DNA from: Arabidopsis thaliana
Taxonomy: Eukaryota > Streptophyta > Magnoliopsida > Brassicales > Brassicaceae
Length of the DNA: 64,000 nucleotides
Assembly (NCBI RefSeq): GCF_000001735.4
Contig: NC_003075.7
Location: forward strand, 15,439,001-15,503,000
Reading direction: 5' to 3'
Part shown: one piece after another, positions 13,040 through 25,358 of the stretch
Numbering within the stretch: position 1 is the stretch's first letter
How the letters are laid out: each line of letters opens with the position of its first letter
Translations under genes and position numbers: made by a program
The notes under the pieces: generated by a model
The model's input: only the letters and a program-made list of their open reading frames with translations
Databases searched by the model: none
Told to the model about the DNA's origin: nothing

Positions 13040-14966
13040 ATGGATACTTCCCTCTTTTCTTTGTTTGTTCCAATCCTTGTTTTCGTTTTTATCGCTCTTT
13101 TCAAGAAATCAAAGAAACCAAAATATGTAAAAGCTCCTGCACCAAGTGGTGCATGGCCCATCATCGGCCATCTTCACCTTCTCGGTGGCAAGGAACAGCT
13201 TCTCTACCGAACCTTAGGAAAAATGGCTGACCACTACGGTCCAGCCATGTCGCTACAACTTGGGAGCAATGAAGCATTTGTTGTGAGCAGTTTTGAGGTG
13301 GCTAAAGATTGTTTTACTGTGAACGACAAGGCCTTGGCTTCACGTCCTATGACTGCAGCTGCAAAGCACATGGGTTACAATTTTGCTGTTTTCGGGTTTG
13401 CCCCTTATAGCGCTTTCTGGCGTGAGATGCGTAAAATCGCAACCATCGAGCTTCTTTCTAACCGGCGGCTTCAGATGCTCAAGCACGTTCGTGTTTCTGA
13501 GATCACAATGGGTAATTACTTTTCTTAAAAACCATGTCTACCGTACCAAACGTATATAACAATAATTGTCGATATTGTTATATGATACGATGCCATATTG
13601 TCACATGCAGGTGTGAAAGATTTGTATTCCTTGTGGTTCAAGAATGGCGGTACAAAACCAGTAATGGTTGATCTAAAGAGCTGGTTAGAGGACATGACTC
13701 TGAACATGATCGTGAGAATGGTGGCAGGAAAACGATACTTTGGAGGCGGAGGCTCAGTATCGTCGGAGGATACTGAAGAGGCAATGCAATGCAAAAAGGC
13801 CATCGCAAAGTTCTTTCACCTCATCGGTATATTCACTGTGTCAGATGCTTTTCCGACACTAAGTTTTTTTGATTTGCAAGGACATGAGAAGGAGATGAAG
13901 CAAACGGGAAGCGAATTAGATGTGATCCTTGAAAGATGGATTGAAAACCATCGACAACAACGCAAATTTTCAGGAACGAAAGAGAATGATTCAGACTTCA
14001 TCGACGTTATGATGTCGCTTGCGGAACAAGGAAAACTCTCGCATCTCCAGTATGATGCAAATACTAGCATCAAATCTACCTGCCTGGTATACCTTTCTAT
14101 ACACAAATCTTGATTTTTAAGAAAAAAATATGAGATAACTAAAATACTTACCAAATTGGGATTTAACCCAAAATATAATGTTTTATAATATATAAGTTTA
14201 ACTAGAAATGTTAGGTGGAGAGACGCACTTGGGTCATATTTAAAAGAAATCAATTACAACCTAAAATGTGATGTGGAGATTAATTAGATGATATTGACTC
14301 TTTTAATGTGTGTGATATAAATATACTATGAATAATCAGGCACTGATTCTTGGAGGAAGTGACACTTCAGCATCAACCCTTACATGGGCCATTTCTCTTC
14401 TTCTAAACAATAAAGAAATGTTAAAGAAAGCACAAGATGAGATCGACATCCACGTCGGCAGAGACAGGAACGTCGAGGATTCAGACATAGAAAATTTGGT
14501 GTATCTTCAAGCAATTATCAAAGAAACATTGAGATTGTATCCAGCTGGTCCTCTCTTAGGCCCTCGAGAGGCGATGGAAGATTGCACGGTCGCTGGTTAC
14601 TACGTTCCGTGCGGCACAAGACTCATAGTGAACGTATGGAAAATCCAAAGAGATCCGAAAGTTTATATGGAACCAAACGAGTTCAGACCAGAGAGGTTCA
14701 TTACAGGAGAAGCAAAAGAGTTTGATGTGAGAGGACAAAACTTTGAGCTGATGCCATTTGGTTCAGGAAGAAGATCATGCCCAGGCTCTTCATTGGCCAT
14801 GCAAGTGCTTCATTTAGGTCTTGCTCGTTTCCTTCATTCATTTGACGTGAAAACTGTTATGGATATGCCTGTTGATATGAGTGAGAACCCTGGCTTAACC
14901 ATTCCTAAAGCCACGCCTCTTGAGGTTCTGATCAGTCCACGTATTAAGGAAGAACTTTTTGTGTGA
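13040..14966 (+). CDS. CYP82C4: Cytochrome P450 CYP82C4 (fraxetin 5-hydroxylase)
   Basis: Exons 13040-13511, 13611-14086 and 14340-14966 give 524 residues. Visible P450 features are the N-terminal hydrophobic ER anchor, the proline hinge APAPSGAWPIIGH, the helix-C WREMR, the I-helix GGSDTS, the K-helix ETLR, the PERF motif and the heme-binding loop FGSGRRSCPG with its ligand cysteine. The order and length fit At4g31940. CYP82C4 hydroxylates fraxetin to sideretin, a redox-active coumarin secreted by iron-deficient roots, and also acts on methoxypsoralen (both from memory). It is the first gene of a three-gene tandem array with about 90% similar neighbours. All three genes share intron positions, which points to segmental tandem duplication rather than retroposition. 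Confidence 0.92.
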
Positions 14967-15566: not shown

Positions 15567-16162
15567 TCAGTTTCTTCACTATTCATCAGCCTTTTTAAGT
15601 TACAGTAATCGTTGTATGAAACAAGCGTGCACGGTCGTGCCCGTTTTGTCGAAGCAGCTTGCAAGAGTTAATTATGGTGATGTATAATTAGTGTATTTTT
15701 AATTATATGTGTTTTAATTTAGATTTTCTATGTTTTAGGACATTTACTTTTGATTTAGTTATTATTATGAATTCAGAATTATAAAATCATATCTAAATTT
15801 CAATATTTTGAATATAATAATATAATATTTCAAAACCCAAGTAGATAATTGGTCAAGAATTGGTTAAGATAAATGGTTGAAAATCATTCAGAAATGTTCA
15901 AAAAAGTTCGACCATTTTAATTTTCAAAATGTTCGACCACTTATACTCGTCAGTAATTTTAAAAAAAAATCGACCAAATCCAATTTGCGACACGCGCTTT
16001 TGACGACTTGCTTTTGGTCAAACATAGTAAGAAATGGCCAATTTTTGACCAATCTATTGACCTAATTCATAGTATAAAAGGGATAGTTTTCTTGTAGTAG
16101 CTCTTCAATCATTCAAAACAAAATATCACCAACACACATCTCTTTTGCACTCTCAAAACACT
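15567..16162 (+). promoter_or_regulatory. CYP82C3 upstream region (empty-site paralogue)
   Basis: The stretch 15567-16030 is paralogous to 22311-23265 upstream of CYP82C2 but lacks the 467-base LINE, preserving the unoccupied target ATAATTAGTGTATTTT at 15684-15699. W-box cores (TTGACC or its complement) lie at 15851, 16016, 16045 and 16057. The core promoter, from about 16030 to 16110, differs from that of the two sister genes and uses a TATAAAA at about 16073. Confidence 0.6.
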
Positions 16163-18090
16163 ATGGATACTTCCCTCTTTTCTTTATTTGTTTCAATCCT
16201 TGTTTTCGTTTTTATCGCTCTTTTCAAGAAATCAAAGAAACCAAAATATGTAAAAGCTCCTGCACCAAGTGGTGCATGGCCCATCATTGGTCATCTCCAC
16301 CTTCTCGGTGGCAAGGAACAGCTTCTTTACCGAACCTTAGGAAAAATGGCTGACCACTACGGTCCAGCCATGTCGCTACGACTTGGGAGCAGTGAAACAT
16401 TTGTTGGGAGCAGTTTTGAGGTGGCTAAAGATTGTTTTACTGTGAACGACAAAGCCTTGGCTTCTCTTATGACTGCAGCCGCAAAGCACATGGGTTACGT
16501 TTTCTGGCTCGAGATGCGTAAAATCGCAATGATCGAGCTCCTTTCTAACCGGCGCCTTCAGATGCTCAACAACGTTCGTGTTTCTGAGATCTCAATGGGT
16601 AATTTAAAAAAACCATGTCTACCGTACCAAACTTATATAACAACAATTGTCGATATTGTTAATTGTGATACGATGCAATACTGTCACATGCAGGTGTGAA
16701 AGATTTGTATTCCTTATGGGTCAAGAAAGGTGGTTCAGAACCAGTAATGGTTGATCTAAAGAGCTGGTTAGAGGACATGATTGCGAACATGATCATGAGA
16801 ATGGTGGCCGGAAAGCGATACTTTGGAGGCGGCGGCGCAGAATCCTCGGAACATACCGAAGAGGCAAGGCAATGGAGAAAGGGCATCGCGAAATTCTTTC
16901 ACCTCGTCGGTATATTCACCGTGTCTGATGCTTTTCCGAAACTAGGGTGGCTTGATTTGCAAGGACATGAGAAGGAGATGAAGCAGACAAGAAGAGAGTT
17001 AGATGTGATCCTTGAAAGATGGATTGAAAACCATCGACAACAACGCAAAGTTTCAGGAACGAAACACAATGATTCAGACTTCGTCGACGTTATGTTGTCG
17101 CTTGCAGAACAAGGCAAACTCTCGCATCTTCAATACGATGCCAATACGTGCATCAAAACTACCTGCCTGGTACACTTTATCTACACAAATCTTGACGTAT
17201 TTTAGATGGACTAGATATAAATACCTAACCAAATTGTCTTGGAATCTTACCCAAAACTTATTGTTTCTAATATAGAAAGTTGGTTACTTGGTTATATGAA
17301 CGAGATATTAACTAGATAGGTTAGGTGGAAAGACGTAATTGGAACGTACTTAATTTTTAAGAGAAATCACTTACAACCTAAAATGTGACGTGGTGAATCG
17401 TTATTAGATGATAATTGTCTCTTTTAATATATGTCATAAAATGATAATAAATTGAATAATCAGGCACTAATTCTTGGAGGAAGTGAGACTTCACCATCAA
17501 CCCTTACATGGGCCATTTCTCTTCTTCTAAACAATAAGGACATGTTAAAGAAAGTACAAGATGAGATAGACATCCACGTCGGCAGAGACAGGAACGTTGA
17601 GGATTCAGACATAAAAAATCTGGTATATCTTCAAGCGATTATCAAAGAAACATTGAGATTGTATCCAGCTGCTCCTCTCTTAGGCCATCGAGAGGCGATG
17701 GAAGATTGCACGGTCGCAGGTTACAACGTTCCGTGCGGCACAAGACTCATAGTGAACGTATGGAAAATCCAAAGAGATCCGAAAGTTTATATGGAACCAA
17801 ACGAGTTCAGACCAGAGAGGTTTATCACAGGAGAAGCAAAAGATTTTGATGTTAGAGGACAAAACTTTGAGCTGATGCCATTTGGTTCGGGAAGAAGATC
17901 ATGCCCAGGCCCTTCATTGGCCATGCAAATGCTTCATTTAGGTCTTGCTCGTTTCCTTCATTCATTTGAAGTGAAAACTGTATTGGATAGGCCTGTTGAC
18001 ATGAGTGAGAGCCCTGGCTTAACCATTACTAAAGCTACGCCTCTTGAGGTTCTGATCAATCCACGTCTTAAGAGAGAGCTTTTTGTGTGA
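16163..18090 (+). CDS. CYP82C3: Cytochrome P450 CYP82C3, shortened B-C loop
   Basis: Exons 16163-16598, 16694-17169 and 17464-18090 give 512 residues, twelve fewer than CYP82C4. All missing residues are in exon 1. One falls at the RPMT of its sisters, which reads LMT here. Eleven fall in the NFAVFGFAPYSAF stretch, so that MGY is followed almost directly by the helix-C WLEMR. The ER anchor, the I-helix (GGSETS), the K-helix ETLR, PERF and the heme loop FGSGRRSCPG are intact, and the frame is open throughout. The deletion lies between helices B and C, which in plant P450s contains substrate-recognition site 1. Altered or lost activity is therefore likely, but this is inference. The length agrees with what I recall for the reference CYP82C3 (At4g31950), so this is not an assembly fault. 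Confidence 0.9.
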
Positions 18091-18344: not shown

Positions 18345-19855
18345 TGACCATCTTAGCATTTGTTTTAATATAGAATTTGAAAAAAAAATAAAAAAAATTA
18401 AAGTTAGAGTTTTTAGTTTTGTAACTGTCCAATGGTAGACTCTAAAGTGGGGCTCTTAGCGTTTTTTTTTATTTTTGAATCAAAATGAAATTTGTGATAC
18501 AAATAATACAAATTAGGATCAAAGTTGTATATAATCGTAATCGTCATCAACTTCATAAACCCACCAAATTGGAATGGAGAAGTTAACAAATATCAGAACA
18601 AAGCTAGTCAAAGCAAAATCATACGAAGCAAAAGCAATTCAATGGAGAAAAAGACAATCAATATTGCTTGTGTTGCAAACTTCTCCATTCCAATCAACCA
18701 GCTTTCAAGTTATGGCGACAAACTACAATCATTGCGTAATCAAGAACAAATAAGATTATGAAAATAATACCAAATGTTGAAGCATCAGACTCTGCTTATT
18801 CATCCTCTGCATCCTCTTCATCTTCCTCAATATTATCCCCATTTCATTTTCATTATCCTCACCACGACCAGCAACCATTAACTCTAAATTTCCTATGCAA
18901 AGCTCATATACCAGATTCAGAACAATATGAGAAAAGACAACCTCAAGCCCAAGAATCAAAATATACATAATACAAACGACTGAACATCAACAATCTCTCT
19001 GACATATAATCCATTACCAATCACTCATACATAACAGACAATGAGAAAGATGTAAAATTTGGATTAACATTAGCAGCCAAAACAAAAGAAGCACTCAAAT
19101 TTCTATACAAACGAATCAGAACAAGCTCAAGGCACTCAAATTTGGATTAATACAACACAAACTTACAACCGTTAACTGAAAACTCAATTACCGACCAACA
19201 GAGGATTCTAACGTCACTCACAAAATCTCTAGCAACAAAACAACACACAACAGAAAACTCACTAATCACGCGAATTCAAAGATACCTAGATTGAATCAGC
19301 AGTAAAGTTAGAATTTCTATTGTACTTAAGATCTTTCTCGTCAAAAGAGACGGTGGCTTTTGTTCTTGATATATCTCTTCCCAATGTTCCTAGAACTGGT
19401 CGACGGAGCCAGTGAACCCGCCTTCTCATTATCCAAACCTTCCTTCCTCGCGATATCTCTTCCCAATGTGCCTAGAATCGGAAACGAAGCGGTTCCGATC
19501 AAAAATTAGGGTTTGTGAGGTTTACTCAAAATAAGTCTAGGAAGAATAAGAAGAATCAGGAAGCAGAAGGACGGCCGGAGGTCATAAACATCAAACGCTC
19601 CTCCGATTTGCCTCCGTAACAGAAGAAAACCGCGTAACAGAGAGAGAGGAGAAACAAATCAATTTTTTTTGCTTTAATATTTTACCCTTCAAAATGCCAC
19701 GTCACCGCTTCTTAGAAGGGTTTGGGCCTCTCACAAAAGAAGCAACTCTTAATATTAAGCCCAATTTTACATTTATATTTTACACAAATAAGGGCCACCT
19801 AAGAGCCCACCGATAGACTGCTCTTATCAGTAAAGACAACTACATAAAAATGAGA
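18345..19855. mobile_element. Probable DNA-transposon insertion, family unassigned
   Basis: The paralogous flank downstream of CYP82C4 runs continuously through this point, whereas here about 1.5 kb intervenes. Near the ends are similar inverted sequences: AAGTGGGGCTCTTAGCG at about 18444-18460 and, on the opposite strand, GGTGGGCTCTTAGGTGG at about 19795-19815. This suggests terminal or subterminal inverted repeats. Inside are an inverted pair ATTGGAATGGAGAAGTT (18567-18583 and 18678-18694) and an approximate 28-base direct repeat (about 19370 and 19452). No transposase frame is visible, so it is non-autonomous or a relic. The ends resemble short Brassicaceae elements of the PIF/Harbinger sort, but I cannot assign the superfamily. 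Two short open frames (18525-18761 and 18758-18970) look non-coding. Confidence 0.45.
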
Positions 19856-20039
19856 GAAAGTAGACATGTCCCGAAATGGACATGAAACCCGTCGAGTCCT
19901 ATACTCGTCAAAAAGATTTCGTCTCAAAACCATTTGCGTTTAAATAATATACCCGTTTTGAATTGTATATTTTAGTCTAATACATCTTAAAGAAAGATTA
20001 TTCAGTTAGTCTATCGAAAATATTAAATTTAAGCAAACA

Positions 20040-20600
20040 AAAAGATTAGTGCGAATATGATCTCTCAACTGAAAGCAAGAGATAAACGGCTACTAAGGTA
20101 AGAACTGAGTGAACATTTCTTAGGTTTTATTTCACTTGAAGTTTTGATATATCATAGGTTCCCTTTTATAGCTAAACAATGCTAGGGTTTTACACATATC
20201 AAGACTGACACCTGTCTCACTCCTTATTAGGTCTCGCAGGTTGCCAGACAATCAAACCTATTTGTGGTGATGATTGGATCCGTACAGCCCTTCATCACGC
20301 TCCTCTTCCTTGTATCCACTCTGGTTTTGTTTGCTTGTACAGGTGGGATCGACCGTTGGCTGATGTAAGAGGACACAGCAGATTTGGGCTTCAGCTCTTT
20401 TATTGTTTTGTTGTCATTGGGCTTCTGGCCCAATAGGCCTTTGTCTTTGTTACTCACGACACTGTCGTTTTGAGTCTTCGTTTCGACTTCTCCAAAGGGA
20501 TCTTGAAGCTGTCTGGATTCAGATCTTGAAGGTGATGTCGGAGCAGTGGAGGTCATGCTAATATCAACAACCAAACCTGTAAGCATATGAGAAGCTTCCA
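20040..20600 (-). mobile_element. Insertion with retroelement-like coding remnant
   Basis: This block interrupts the duplicated flank: the equivalent CYP82C4-CYP82C3 spacer passes directly from the GAAAATAATAAA to the CCAATAAAA sequences. On the minus strand an open frame (20631-20227) encodes about 134 residues of low-complexity, Ser/Lys/Asn-rich protein ending in DPIITTNRFDCLATCET. That tail resembles the C-terminus of LINE ORF1/DUF4283-type nucleic-acid-binding proteins, but the resemblance is weak. Downstream on the same strand is a TATAAAAGGG element (about 20157-20166). It may be an expressed gene fragment or a TE remnant. Confidence 0.35.
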
Positions 20601-20669
20601 ATAAAACATTCTTAAAATTTATTTTCAACAACTGCCAATGTATTAAAAAAAAGCAATCTCATGAATTGC

Positions 20670-22310
20670 CTACACGCTAATTAGGCGGGCGAAATTTGTT
20701 TTATGTGTATGTGGTATGGTATTTGTTTTTCCTCGCCATCCTTTCCTGGTAAAACCAATAATTTTTTATATCACATATAAAGTTACGTGCTGAACGAAAC
20801 AACCGATTATTATTAAGAATCCATGTTGAAATAGAGAAAATGGATTGTGTGAATAGAAAAACAAAAACGAAAAGTCGACAAAAAAAACAAAAAACAGAAA
20901 AACCCACTAAAGTCAAGCGTTTTGTTTCAACCATGTTATAGTTTAGAACTTTATAATCAGAAATTAATTCCACGAAAATGAATAAATGTCAGCAGTCAAA
21001 CCAGACCATTAAAAGAAACAATTACCATTAAAAGATATATTGACTAACAAAATCAATACAAACCTTTGCGTCCATCTCTGTTATGGACACAGTTGACAAT
21101 TACAAAAACCCTCCATCTTCCTGTCTCTCTCTATCATCCATGACTTTTTTTTTTCTCAACAACAACTAATTATTATCCAAAGTTCTTAGATAATGAGATT
21201 AATACATGCTATTTCTTGCCCAACTAGGCACAATAGAATAAAGCTTAGGATCATAATTCAAAAATGAAAGAGACTCCCTTGATACTCTGCCAATGTGTGC
21301 CCTCTCTTGGTATGAACACAAACTTGACCTCTTCAAATTGGGGGAGCAACCTCTGCAGATCATCCATGACTTAAACTGCACAATAATTAAAATAGGAAAC
21401 TTAAGTTCATCAAGAGAGACCAAAAATATCACAAAACTCTTATTTATACCATTTCTATTGGCAATATTTAATAGTTTTTTATAATTAAAATAATAAAATA
21501 AAAGAGAAAAAAAGTAAAAAAATTCTCGCTTGAATTTTTTTGAAATACTCTATACAACTCATAGTGACATTTTTTTTTTCAATTGGTTCAATTTTTTTTT
21601 ACTAAAAAAAAAATTTTAATTACTTTTTTAGAAATTCTTTGGGGTTCTCCTTGATGGAAAAAGATATACCAAAATAGGTAAAGATTCTTGAACAATGGTG
21701 TACCATCTACGACTTCACCGAAGTGAGCTAAAGCATCCCTTTAACGTTGGTAATCAGTTACCCATGACACACACTGGACATTTACCTTCATCACTCTGGT
21801 CGTCCTGAGACTTGAACAGTTTCTTGTTTCTGTTATCATTTACAACATAAGGCCCACTTCTTGCCCACACACAGTTTATTACTCATCAATTTCTCTAATA
21901 TACTATTACTCTATAACAACAAAAAAGTAACATTGTAATTTGTACACATAGCGTTTGATCTAGCTAGTTCTATATGTAGAATTGATGTTAGCAAGTGAAT
22001 CAAAATTTTGCGGAGATGATGTTTGAACATGGGTTTGTTCATTGTGTTACCCACACGAAGCCAATTTGATTGTTCGTCCAGATCCTTGTAAAAAGAACAC
22101 ATATGGATCATTTAGTCGCAACAATAAAGAAGATGTATCAGAGCTACATATGTATGTTTCACAGTATTTCTCCTCTCGATTAACAATGAACTGGTGCAAG
22201 GATCACCCGATTCGTTCTTGAGGGAAGTATCTTGGGAAGCAGATCGATTTAGAGGCAAAGAGGGCTCAAAAGAAATCGTTGATGAAATCGCTCAAGGTCT
22301 CGCTTGAAGG
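20670..22310. other. CYP82C3-CYP82C2 spacer without duplicated counterpart
   Basis: About 1.6 kb with no equivalent in the CYP82C4-CYP82C3 spacer, so it was probably gained after the duplication or lost from the other copy. Open frames here are short. The plus-strand frames around 21270-21370 (LDLFKLGEQPLQIIHDL) and 22205-22320 (GKYLGKQIDLEAKRAQKK) read like decayed coding fragments, but I cannot name a parent gene. Confidence 0.3.
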
Positions 22311-22439
22311 TTCGCAGTTTCTTCACTAATCGTGAGCCTTTTTAAAGTTGCAGTAATCGTTGTATGAAACAAGCGTGCACGGTCATAGTCATGCTCGTTT
22401 TCTCGAGGCAGCTTGACAAGAGTTAAATTATGGTGATGG

Positions 22440-22455
22440 ATAATTAGTGTATTTT
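22440..22455 (+). repeat. Left target-site duplication of the LINE
   Basis: ATAATTAGTGTATTTT immediately precedes the LINE fragment. The same 16 bases follow its A-rich tail at 22924-22939 and occur once, uninterrupted, at 15684-15699 in the paralogous CYP82C3 upstream region. Confidence 0.85.
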
Positions 22456-22456
22456 T

Positions 22457-22923
22457 GAGGCTGTCTCAACTGAACTTTCATTTAATGACTTGGCTAGCGA
22501 TACAGAACCGTCTAGCCACAAAAGAGAGATTATTAAAGTGGAATGGCGAGGCAAATGGTGGTAGTGTGTTTTGTCAAACGGAAATAGAAACAAGAGATCA
22601 CCTATTTTTCTCTTGTTCATACTCTCATGCTTGGTCAGCTCTTACTATGAAATATATGCTCGGCTCTCGCTTCACGACTTGCTGTGATTCTCTTGTTGCC
22701 CTATCTACGACCTTTTCCTCTCCACAACTTCATTTGTTTGTGTTTAGATATGTCTTTCAACTCACTATACACAATCTATGGAAAGAATTAAATGCCCCAT
22801 AACTCAGAGCTCCCACTTCTTTTTAAATCTTGTTCTATTAAGTTTTCAAAATTTTCTCGGTTTTATGTTGAATTTATTGTAAAACCGTTTTTGAATTTTA
22901 AACTCATACAAAAACAAAAAAAT
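22457..22923 (+). mobile_element. 5'-truncated LINE (non-LTR retrotransposon) upstream of CYP82C2
   Basis: A 467-base insertion with the hallmarks of target-primed reverse transcription: 16-bp target-site duplications, 5' truncation and an A-rich 3' end (ACAAAAACAAAAAAAT). The open frame inside (to 22802) encodes the C-terminal zinc-binding domain of a reverse transcriptase (zf-RVT), with the pattern FCQTEIETRDHLFFSC giving the Cys...His-x4-Cys ligands and the following tryptophan-containing helix. The element points the same way as CYP82C2 and ends about 480 bases before its ATG. From memory, a LINE-derived enhancer called EPCOT3 was reported to have brought CYP82C2 under WRKY33 control (Barco and colleagues, 2019). 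This fragment is the natural candidate. It contains one TTGAC core, in reverse, at 22573-22577. Confidence 0.85.
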
Positions 22924-22939
22924 ATAATTAGTGTATTTT
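22924..22939 (+). repeat. Right target-site duplication of the LINE
   Basis: Second copy of ATAATTAGTGTATTTT, directly after the A-rich LINE tail. From here the sequence resumes alignment with the CYP82C3 upstream region (AATTAT-TGTGTTTTAAT). Confidence 0.85.
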
Positions 22940-23407
22940 AAATTATTTGTGTTTTAATATATTTTTTATTTTATCTTTTAAAACATGTTTTTTATTTGAG
23001 TTATTATTATGAATTCAGTATTATAAAGTCATATCTTCATTTCAATTTTTTTTTGAATATAATGTTATATAATATTTCTAAACACAAGTAGATAACGTTG
23101 GTCAATATTTGGTTAAGATAAATGGTGGAAAAATATTCAGAAATGTTCAAAAATGTTCGACCATTTTTTTTATTTCAAAATGTACGTCAGTAACTATCGA
23201 TTTTTTTTGACCATATACAATTTGCGACCCCCGCCTTTCGACGACTTGCTTTTGGTCAAACAGCAGTAAGATAGGCGTATGTCTCATGCTTACATGGTAT
23301 TGAACCGATAATATGTGTGTGTATATATAGAGAGACAGACTATACTTTTTAATCATTCAAAACTAGAAATCACCAAACACACATCTCTTTTGCACGCTCA
23401 AACCACT
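22940..23407 (+). promoter_or_regulatory. CYP82C2: CYP82C2 proximal promoter
   Basis: A chimeric region. Up to about 23268 it aligns with the CYP82C3 upstream DNA, and from about 23275 it aligns with the CYP82C4 proximal promoter (GTATGTCTCATGC ... TATATATAGAGAGACAGAC). W-box cores lie at 23100-23105, 23207-23212 and 23254-23259. The TATA element is near 23322-23330, about 80 bases before the ATG. WRKY control of CYP82C2 is known from the literature; which box is used cannot be told here. Confidence 0.6.
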
Positions 23408-25358
23408 ATGGATACTTCCCTCTTTTCTTTATTTGTTCCAATCCTTGTTTTCGTTTTTATTGCTCTTTTTAAGAAATCAAAGAAACCAAAACATGTAAAA
23501 GCTCCTGCACCAAGTGGTGCGTGGCCCATCATCGGTCATCTTCACCTTCTCAGTGGCAAGGAACAGCTTCTTTACCGAACCTTAGGAAAAATGGCTGACC
23601 AGTACGGTCCAGCCATGTCGCTACGACTTGGGAGCAGTGAAACATTTGTTGTGAGCAGTTTTGAGGTGGCTAAAGATTGTTTTACTGTGAACGACAAAGC
23701 CTTGGCTTCACGTCCTATTACTGCAGCCGCAAAGCACATGGGTTACGATTGTGCTGTTTTCGGGTTTGCGCCTTATAGCGCTTTCTGGCGTGAGATGCGT
23801 AAAATCGCAACCCTCGAGCTACTTTCTAACCGGCGGCTTCAGATGCTCAAGCATGTCCGTGTTTCTGAGATCTCAATGGGTAATTAAAAAAAAAAAAAAA
23901 CGTATATAATAATAATTTTCGATATTGTTAATTTTGTTATGATGCGATATTGACATATTGTCACATGCATGCATGCAGTTATGCAAGATTTGTATTCCTT
24001 GTGGGTCAAGAAAGGTGGTTCAGAACCAGTAATGGTTGATCTAAAGAGCTGGTTAGAGGATATGAGTCTGAACATGATGGTGAGAATGGTGGCCGGAAAG
24101 CGATACTTTGGAGGCGGCTCGTTATCCCCTGAAGATGCCGAAGAGGCAAGGCAATGCAGAAAGGGCGTCGCAAATTTCTTTCACCTCGTCGGTATATTCA
24201 CCGTGTCCGATGCTTTTCCGAAACTAGGGTGGTTTGATTTTCAAGGACATGAGAAGGAGATGAAGCAAACAGGAAGAGAATTAGATGTGATCCTTGAAAG
24301 ATGGATTGAAAACCATCGACAACAACGAAAAGTTTCAGGAACGAAACACAATGATTCAGACTTCGTCGACGTTATGCTGTCGCTTGCAGAACAAGGCAAA
24401 TTCTCGCATCTTCAACATGATGCAATTACTAGCATTAAATCTACCTGCCTGGTACATCTTTAACTACACAAATTTTGATGTTTTTTAGATGAACTAGATA
24501 TATAAACCTAACCAAATTAACTGGGATTTTGTCCAAAAATTATTGTTTTCTAAAATACAAAGTTAGTTATATAAACAAGTTTAGGTGGAAAGACGTAAAT
24601 GATAACATGTTTATTTTGTAAGAAATTACTTCAACCTTAAATTGATGGGATTAGGCGAATCCTGATTAGATGATACTTATAAGTATATTGTTTTAATGTA
24701 TGTCATATAATGATAATAAATTGAATAACAGGCACTGATTCTTGGAGGAAGTGAGACTTCACCATCAACCCTTACATGGGCCATTTCTCTTCTTCTAAAC
24801 AATAAGGACATGTTAAAGAAAGCACAAGATGAGATCGACATCCACGTCGGCAGAGACAGGAACGTCGAGGATTCAGACATAGAAAATCTGGTGTATATTC
24901 AAGCGATTATCAAAGAAACATTGAGATTGTATCCAGCTGGTCCTCTCTTAGGCCATCGAGAGGCGATAGAAGATTGCACGGTCGCTGGTTACAACGTTCG
25001 TCGCGGCACAAGAATGTTAGTGAATGTATGGAAAATCCAAAGAGATCCGAGGGTTTATATGGAGCCAAACGAATTTCGACCAGAGAGGTTTATCACAGGA
25101 GAAGCAAAAGAGTTCGATGTAAGAGGACAAAACTTTGAGCTGATGCCATTTGGTTCGGGAAGAAGATCATGCCCAGGCTCTTCATTGGCCATGCAAGTGC
25201 TTCATTTAGGTCTTGCTCGTTTCCTTCAATCATTTGACGTGAAAACTGTTATGGATATGCCTGTTGATATGACTGAGAGCCCTGGCTTAACCATTCCTAA
25301 AGCCACGCCTCTTGAGATTCTGATCAGTCCACGTCTTAAGGAAGGGCTTTATGTGTGA
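23408..25358 (+). CDS. CYP82C2: Cytochrome P450 CYP82C2 (ICN 4-hydroxylase)
   Basis: Exons 23408-23879, 23979-24451 and 24732-25358 give 523 residues. The ER anchor, the hinge APAPSGAWPIIGH, the full B-C loop (DCAVFGFAPYSAF), helix-C WREMR, I-helix GGSETS, ETLR, PERF and the heme loop FGSGRRSCPG are all present. Exon 2 begins VMQDLYSLW where the sisters read GVKDLYSLW, because its acceptor lies after a duplicated GCATGCATGCAG. The family member at this position (At4g31970) converts indole-3-carbonyl nitrile to the antibacterial 4-hydroxy derivative and can also 5-hydroxylate 8-methoxypsoralen (from memory). It is the last gene of the tandem array, and the only one with a LINE inserted in its upstream region. 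Confidence 0.92.

Follow-up and report, generated by a model that had tools for sequence, protein, structure and literature searches.

A truncated LINE upstream of Arabidopsis CYP82C2 that most simply post-dates the CYP82C2/CYP82C3 duplication and is very probably independent of the enhancer EPCOT3

EPCOT3 is often cited as a retrotransposon that became an enhancer, and a LINE fragment stands about 0.5 kb upstream of CYP82C2 in Arabidopsis thaliana. Is this fragment EPCOT3, the known WRKY33-controlled exaptation, as the original prediction held, and did it arrive before or after the tandem duplication that gave CYP82C2 and CYP82C3? Both questions were addressed in a window of 64,000 nucleotides (C4:15439001-15503000), to which all positions given without a chromosome refer; whole-genome matches were searched in 119.7 Mb on 7 contigs. 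The window contains three genes that we take to be CYP82C4, CYP82C3 and CYP82C2, with start codons at 13040, 16163 and 23408, respectively. The name CYP82C2 is supported by two promoter primers given in the text of PMC6671987, because the gene-specific parts of both match exactly, at 20593 and 23389. The features of the LINE and of its paralogous counterpart are these:

15684-15699, forward strand: unduplicated target, the paralogous empty site upstream of CYP82C3 (exact match and BLAST)
16163-18090, forward strand: coding span of the presumed CYP82C3, its end approximate, from the last open frame
22440-22455 (22439-22456 under an 18-bp reading), forward strand: left copy of the target-site duplication, 16 bp exact
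22457-22923, forward strand: LINE fragment, 5'-truncated and internally deleted, with an A-rich tail, of a lineage seemingly without RNase H
22458-22799, forward strand: open frame of 114 codons, the C-terminal part of a LINE ORF with a partial zf-RVT domain; stop codon at 22800-22802
22924-22939, forward strand: right copy of the target-site duplication, exact match
23408-25358, forward strand: coding span of the presumed CYP82C2, its end likewise approximate, from the last open frame

The open frame matches the Pfam family zf-RVT (PF13966) with an E value of 1.3e-12 over profile positions 31-82 of 85, and the element is truncated inside this domain, since the match begins at position 31. The A-rich tail, ACAAAAACAAAAAAA, lies at the 3' end, where the 3' ends of the five aligned relatives also fall. 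Protein remnant, A-rich tail, duplication with an empty site and 5' truncation, which characterize an L1-type LINE, were thus all found in this fragment of 467 nt (500 with the duplications). The zf-RVT match and the BLAST breakpoints agree with the 467-base, 5'-truncated element and the boundaries originally predicted. In its zf-RVT 3' part, A-rich tail, 16-18-bp duplication and severe truncation, the fragment resembles other 5'-truncated plant L1-type copies. However, it differs from them in having also lost an internal part of the C-terminal coding end, and in its position, separating the promoter of a duplicated gene from the block that bears EPCOT3.

The same sequence was expected on both flanks, and the two 16-bp copies are indeed exact. 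Across the whole window, ATAATTAGTGTATTTT matches exactly at 15684-15699, 22440-22455 and 22924-22939, all on the forward strand, and nowhere on the reverse strand. Junction-like 30-bp windows never shared a run of more than 10 bases in 3,000 dinucleotide shuffles of 22280-23407, and 21 of 200,000 random pairs of 40-bp windows from 18401-23400 shared at least 16 bases, a count that includes the duplication itself. The target copy at CYP82C3 reads TATAATTAGTGTATTTTT intact; the left CYP82C2 copy departs from it in the first base, the right one in the last. Read in this way, the original target was probably 18 bp long, TATAATTAGTGTATTTTT, and each CYP82C2 copy has since changed once (G at 22439, A at 22940). 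In our judgement this reading is at least as good as that of an exact 16-bp duplication. Dating the LINE by the identity of the two copies was rejected, their differences being 0/16 or 2/18 according to the reading; as they may differ at 2/18, a very recent insertion is not required.

The comparison of the CYP82C3 side with the CYP82C2 side by BLAST gave two collinear blocks, 15542-15700/22292-22456 (85%) and 15683-18192/22923-25460 (83%), which overlap by 18 bases at CYP82C3 and are separated by the LINE at CYP82C2. Such an overlap is the signature of a target-site duplication. Breakpoints were taken from BLAST, and the left junction was also compared base by base. The upstream alignment that had been proposed as a check therefore recovered the repeat pair, and the intact target claimed upstream of CYP82C3 was found both as an exact match and by BLAST. 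Because of this paralogous empty site, the LINE is most simply placed after the CYP82C2/CYP82C3 duplication, as had been proposed.

Where, then, is EPCOT3? The text of PMC6671987 (Barco, Kim and Clay 2019) describes it as a stretch of 240 nt that takes in the W4 region, bound by WRKY33 after Psta infection, and that has poly(A), target-site duplications, a W-box and a WRKY33-specific motif. According to the same text, a relative, EPL1 (85.4%), has both motifs, and the WRKY33-specific motif is absent from another, EPL2 (67%); ChIP, reporter and histone-mark results, 11 retrocopies and absence from A. lyrata are among the further properties reported. A second fragment, about 1.1 kb further upstream of the LINE at 22457-22923 and in the opposite orientation, corresponds to this description:

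21133-21372, reverse strand: LINE copy of 240 nt including 14-bp duplications, with poly(A) at its low-coordinate end; EPCOT3 by its fit to the description
21133-21146 and 21359-21372: the 14-bp duplication copies, ATCATCCATGACTT, as a flanking direct repeat
21256-21262, reverse strand: WRKY33-specific motif TTTGAAT inside EPCOT3
21324-21329, forward strand: W-box TTGACC inside EPCOT3

The fragment measures exactly 240 nt when both 14-bp duplications are counted, and its poly(A) is on the minus strand. It lies at C4:15460133-15460372, or -2275 to -2036 relative to the ATG of CYP82C2, against -951 to -485 for the LINE at 22457-22923. A genome search with 20593-22060 returned an 88% match for 21145-21361 (L010). 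Nine other genomic matches overlap 21133-21372; four were aligned, and their motifs were scored by eye from the alignment columns. The nearest relative, L010 (88% locally, 87.6-89.6% for the body), has the W-box and the WRKY33-specific motif, as the fragment does; the next, L013 (70%; body 69.3-71.2%), has the W-box and lacks the WRKY33-specific motif; L023 and L027 have neither. We infer that L010 is EPL1 and L013 is EPL2, their identities to the fragment standing 2-4 points above the values in the published text. Since length, duplications, poly(A), both motifs and these two relatives match the description, as far as the text of that paper gives it, the fragment at 21133-21372 on the reverse strand fits EPCOT3, and we take it as such.

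The two elements upstream of CYP82C2 are alike in being LINE-derived and 5'-truncated, with an A-rich tail and target-site duplications. EPCOT3 differs in its strand, its 240 nt, its RNase H lineage, its W-box and the ChIP and reporter support reported in the text of PMC6671987. The LINE at 22457-22923 has eight other matches in the same genome, the best-scoring at 76% and shorter ones at no more than 81% over 83 bases. Five of them were aligned (L002 and L004-L007); L003, L008 and one match without a locus stand outside the alignment. The coding part is retained in L002 (76%), L006 and L007, compared with which the LINE is also missing part of the 3' coding, C-terminal end; L004 and L005 match towards the 3' end only. 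Past the zf-RVT part, the frame continues for about 100 residues in L002 and about 75 in L007, and a Pfam search of the final 96 residues of L002 gave no family at E 0.01. Judged from these two relatives, L002 by the Pfam search and L007 by the length of its frame, the LINE seems to belong to a lineage without RNase H. By contrast, the EPCOT3 relative L010 encodes zf-RVT followed by RVT_3 (RNase H), and the two insertions thus seem to stem from different LINE lineages.

A LINE distinct from EPCOT3 might still act in WRKY33 control. Two further features bear on this point:

22867-22896, forward strand: two WRKY33-specific motif matches, GTTGAAT at 22867 and TTTGAAT at 22890 (shuffle P of at least two, 0.063)
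23207-23378, forward strand: proximal region with TTGACC W-boxes at 23207 (forward) and 23254 (reverse) and ACCAAAC at 23372 (forward)

The WRKY33-specific motif (T/G)TTGAAT that marks EPCOT3 thus occurs twice in the LINE. No TTGAC(C/T) W-box is present in it on either strand, an absence that is unremarkable in itself, since the shuffled mean is only 0.715; its single TTGAC core, at 22573 on the reverse strand, is followed by a base other than C or T. SMRE sites for MYB51 number zero inside the LINE. Enrichment of the WRKY33-specific motif was rejected as evidence, at least two motifs being present in 6.3% of 1,000 shuffles.

The W-boxes nearest CYP82C2 lie at 23100, 23207 and 23254, about 200-390 nt from the two LINE motifs. 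The stretch 23207-23378 fits the MW region of PMC7005594, for which the text of that paper gives two TTGACC W-boxes, ACCAAAC at 113 nt from one of them, and moderate, 6.4-fold binding by WRKY33. This arrangement is what commends a reading in which both LINEs matter, EPCOT3 as the distal WRKY33 site and the LINE motifs as a means of strengthening WRKY33 at the proximal W-boxes: the motifs lie within 500 nt of those boxes, one stretch of which corresponds to a bound region, and both are missing by eye at the aligned positions in all five aligned relatives (five of the eight matches). The shuffles, however, equal their number too often, and CYP82C2 has WRKY33-specific motifs nearer the gene, at 23052 and 23355, that are mirrored at CYP82C3 (15807 and 16111), where four W-boxes accompany them, so that the LINE motifs add little that CYP82C3 lacks. 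We regard the joint action of both LINEs as unlikely. A shade less probable is a two-step build of the CYP82C2 response to WRKY33, with EPCOT3 as its distal part and the LINE raising the use of the older proximal W-boxes through motifs that would have arisen by substitution and small deletion of its own. Since 6.3% of shuffles match its motif count and both paralogues have nearer motifs, the LINE is probably a passenger, although a contribution from its motifs near the proximal W-boxes is conceivable.

The order of insertion and duplication could also be reversed. If the insertion predated the duplication, recombination between the repeats that flank the LINE would have excised it exactly at CYP82C3, with a single copy of the target left behind. 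Because the repeats run in the same direction and measure 16-18 bp, the outcome would resemble an empty site, and the gene pair is not young. Ks between CYP82C2 and CYP82C3 is about 0.14 (exons 0.125, 0.179 and 0.130, with approximate limits set by hand from open frames, as a search by GT-AG joins gave no exon model), and the ungapped noncoding identity is 76% beside the ATG (343/450 positions) and 90% upstream of the LINE (125/139). Judged by these values, the duplication is not very young. Precise loss of a LINE is nevertheless a rare event, the 114-codon open frame speaks weakly against great age, and CYP82C3 is reported, in the text of PMC6671987, from A. thaliana only. A precise loss at CYP82C3 is accordingly improbable, and insertion after the duplication is preferred. 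Within the coding region, exon 1 of CYP82C3 is about 12 residues shorter than that of CYP82C2 and CYP82C4, with most of the difference near the AVFGFAPYSAFWRE stretch found in those two.

That the LINE at 22457-22923 is itself EPCOT3, the WRKY33-bound enhancer, is scarcely credible despite its 5' truncation, its duplications, its place upstream of CYP82C2 and its two WRKY33-specific motifs, and this part of the original prediction fails: the element has 467 nt rather than 240 and zero canonical W-boxes, its best relative is at 76% with none of the eight matches near 85% and sharing both W-box and motif, and the fragment at 21133-21372 fits the published sequence properties instead. The text of PMC6671987 also names EPCOT1 and EPCOT2 and gives no coordinates for either. 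The LINE may be one of these two, as a sequence of its size that CYP82C2 has and CYP82C3 lacks could be a gap of that kind. In the accessible text of the literature on CYP82C2, EPCOT3, EPCOT1 and retrotransposon or enhancer, figures and supplements aside, no description of the LINE was found; a literature search for AT4G31970 with transposable element found no paper, and PMC9301868, PMC8725346 and PMC7385966, in their available parts, merely restate the EPCOT3 case.

EPCOT3 has empty sites of its own. Two stretches similar to its surroundings, L022 (C4:8021 kb) and L024 (C2:7170 kb), run through the EPCOT3 target without the insert and have a single target copy, slightly diverged or shortened. 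L022 codes for a partial RRM domain followed by a glycine-rich stretch, and for this reason the DNA in which EPCOT3 landed is, as read from this relative, a partial copy of a gene for a glycine-rich RNA-binding protein. The copy lies at 21005-21767 on the reverse strand, antisense to CYP82C2, and is split by EPCOT3 and by another repeat. For the latter, about 245 bp at 21424-21668, the genomic matches listed include 20 to all or some of 21444-21660 (69-86%); an inverted-repeat scan of 21400-21690 found A+T-rich partial pairs only. Just upstream of EPCOT3 and outside the element, at 20911-21045, stand three TTGACT W-boxes, at 20911 and 20994 on the reverse strand and 21040 on the forward strand, possibly the published W5 region.

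CYP82C3 cannot serve as an empty site for EPCOT3, because BLAST of the paralogous regions aligned nothing at CYP82C3 with the stretch around EPCOT3, about 20653-22291. At 21991-22319 lies a piece of an ABC1-kinase-like gene that has an internal deletion and a relative at C2:16737754-16738387. Only about 20-30 bp of the end of this fragment seem, by eye, to be left upstream of CYP82C3, a hint that the missing 1.6 kb were deleted there rather than gained at CYP82C2. A separate stretch of about 545 bp at CYP82C2 (20028-20572), between the BLAST blocks 15258-15412/19879-20027 and 15410-15494/20573-20652, also has no counterpart upstream of CYP82C3 by BLAST, through either insertion or deletion.

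Taken together, these observations are very probably explained by an ordinary LINE insertion after the tandem duplication, independent of EPCOT3 and with no needed role in WRKY33 control. Target-primed reverse transcription would have placed a 5'-truncated L1-type copy, from a lineage that lacks RNase H, some 0.5 kb upstream of CYP82C2 once CYP82C2 and CYP82C3 had been duplicated, and EPCOT3, at 21133-21372 in the opposite orientation, would be a separate and independent insertion. At most, the LINE would be a spacer that pushes the upstream block, EPCOT3 included, about 480 bp further from CYP82C2. The exact limits of the fragment matching the EPCOT3 description, its duplicated target and the two empty gene stretches are newly set here from sequence. 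With at least two LINE insertions in the CYP82C2 promoter, overlaying data on the wrong one, at 22457-22923, would mislead. In the same promoter, of the same element class and without a canonical W-box, this LINE is a natural control for EPCOT3.
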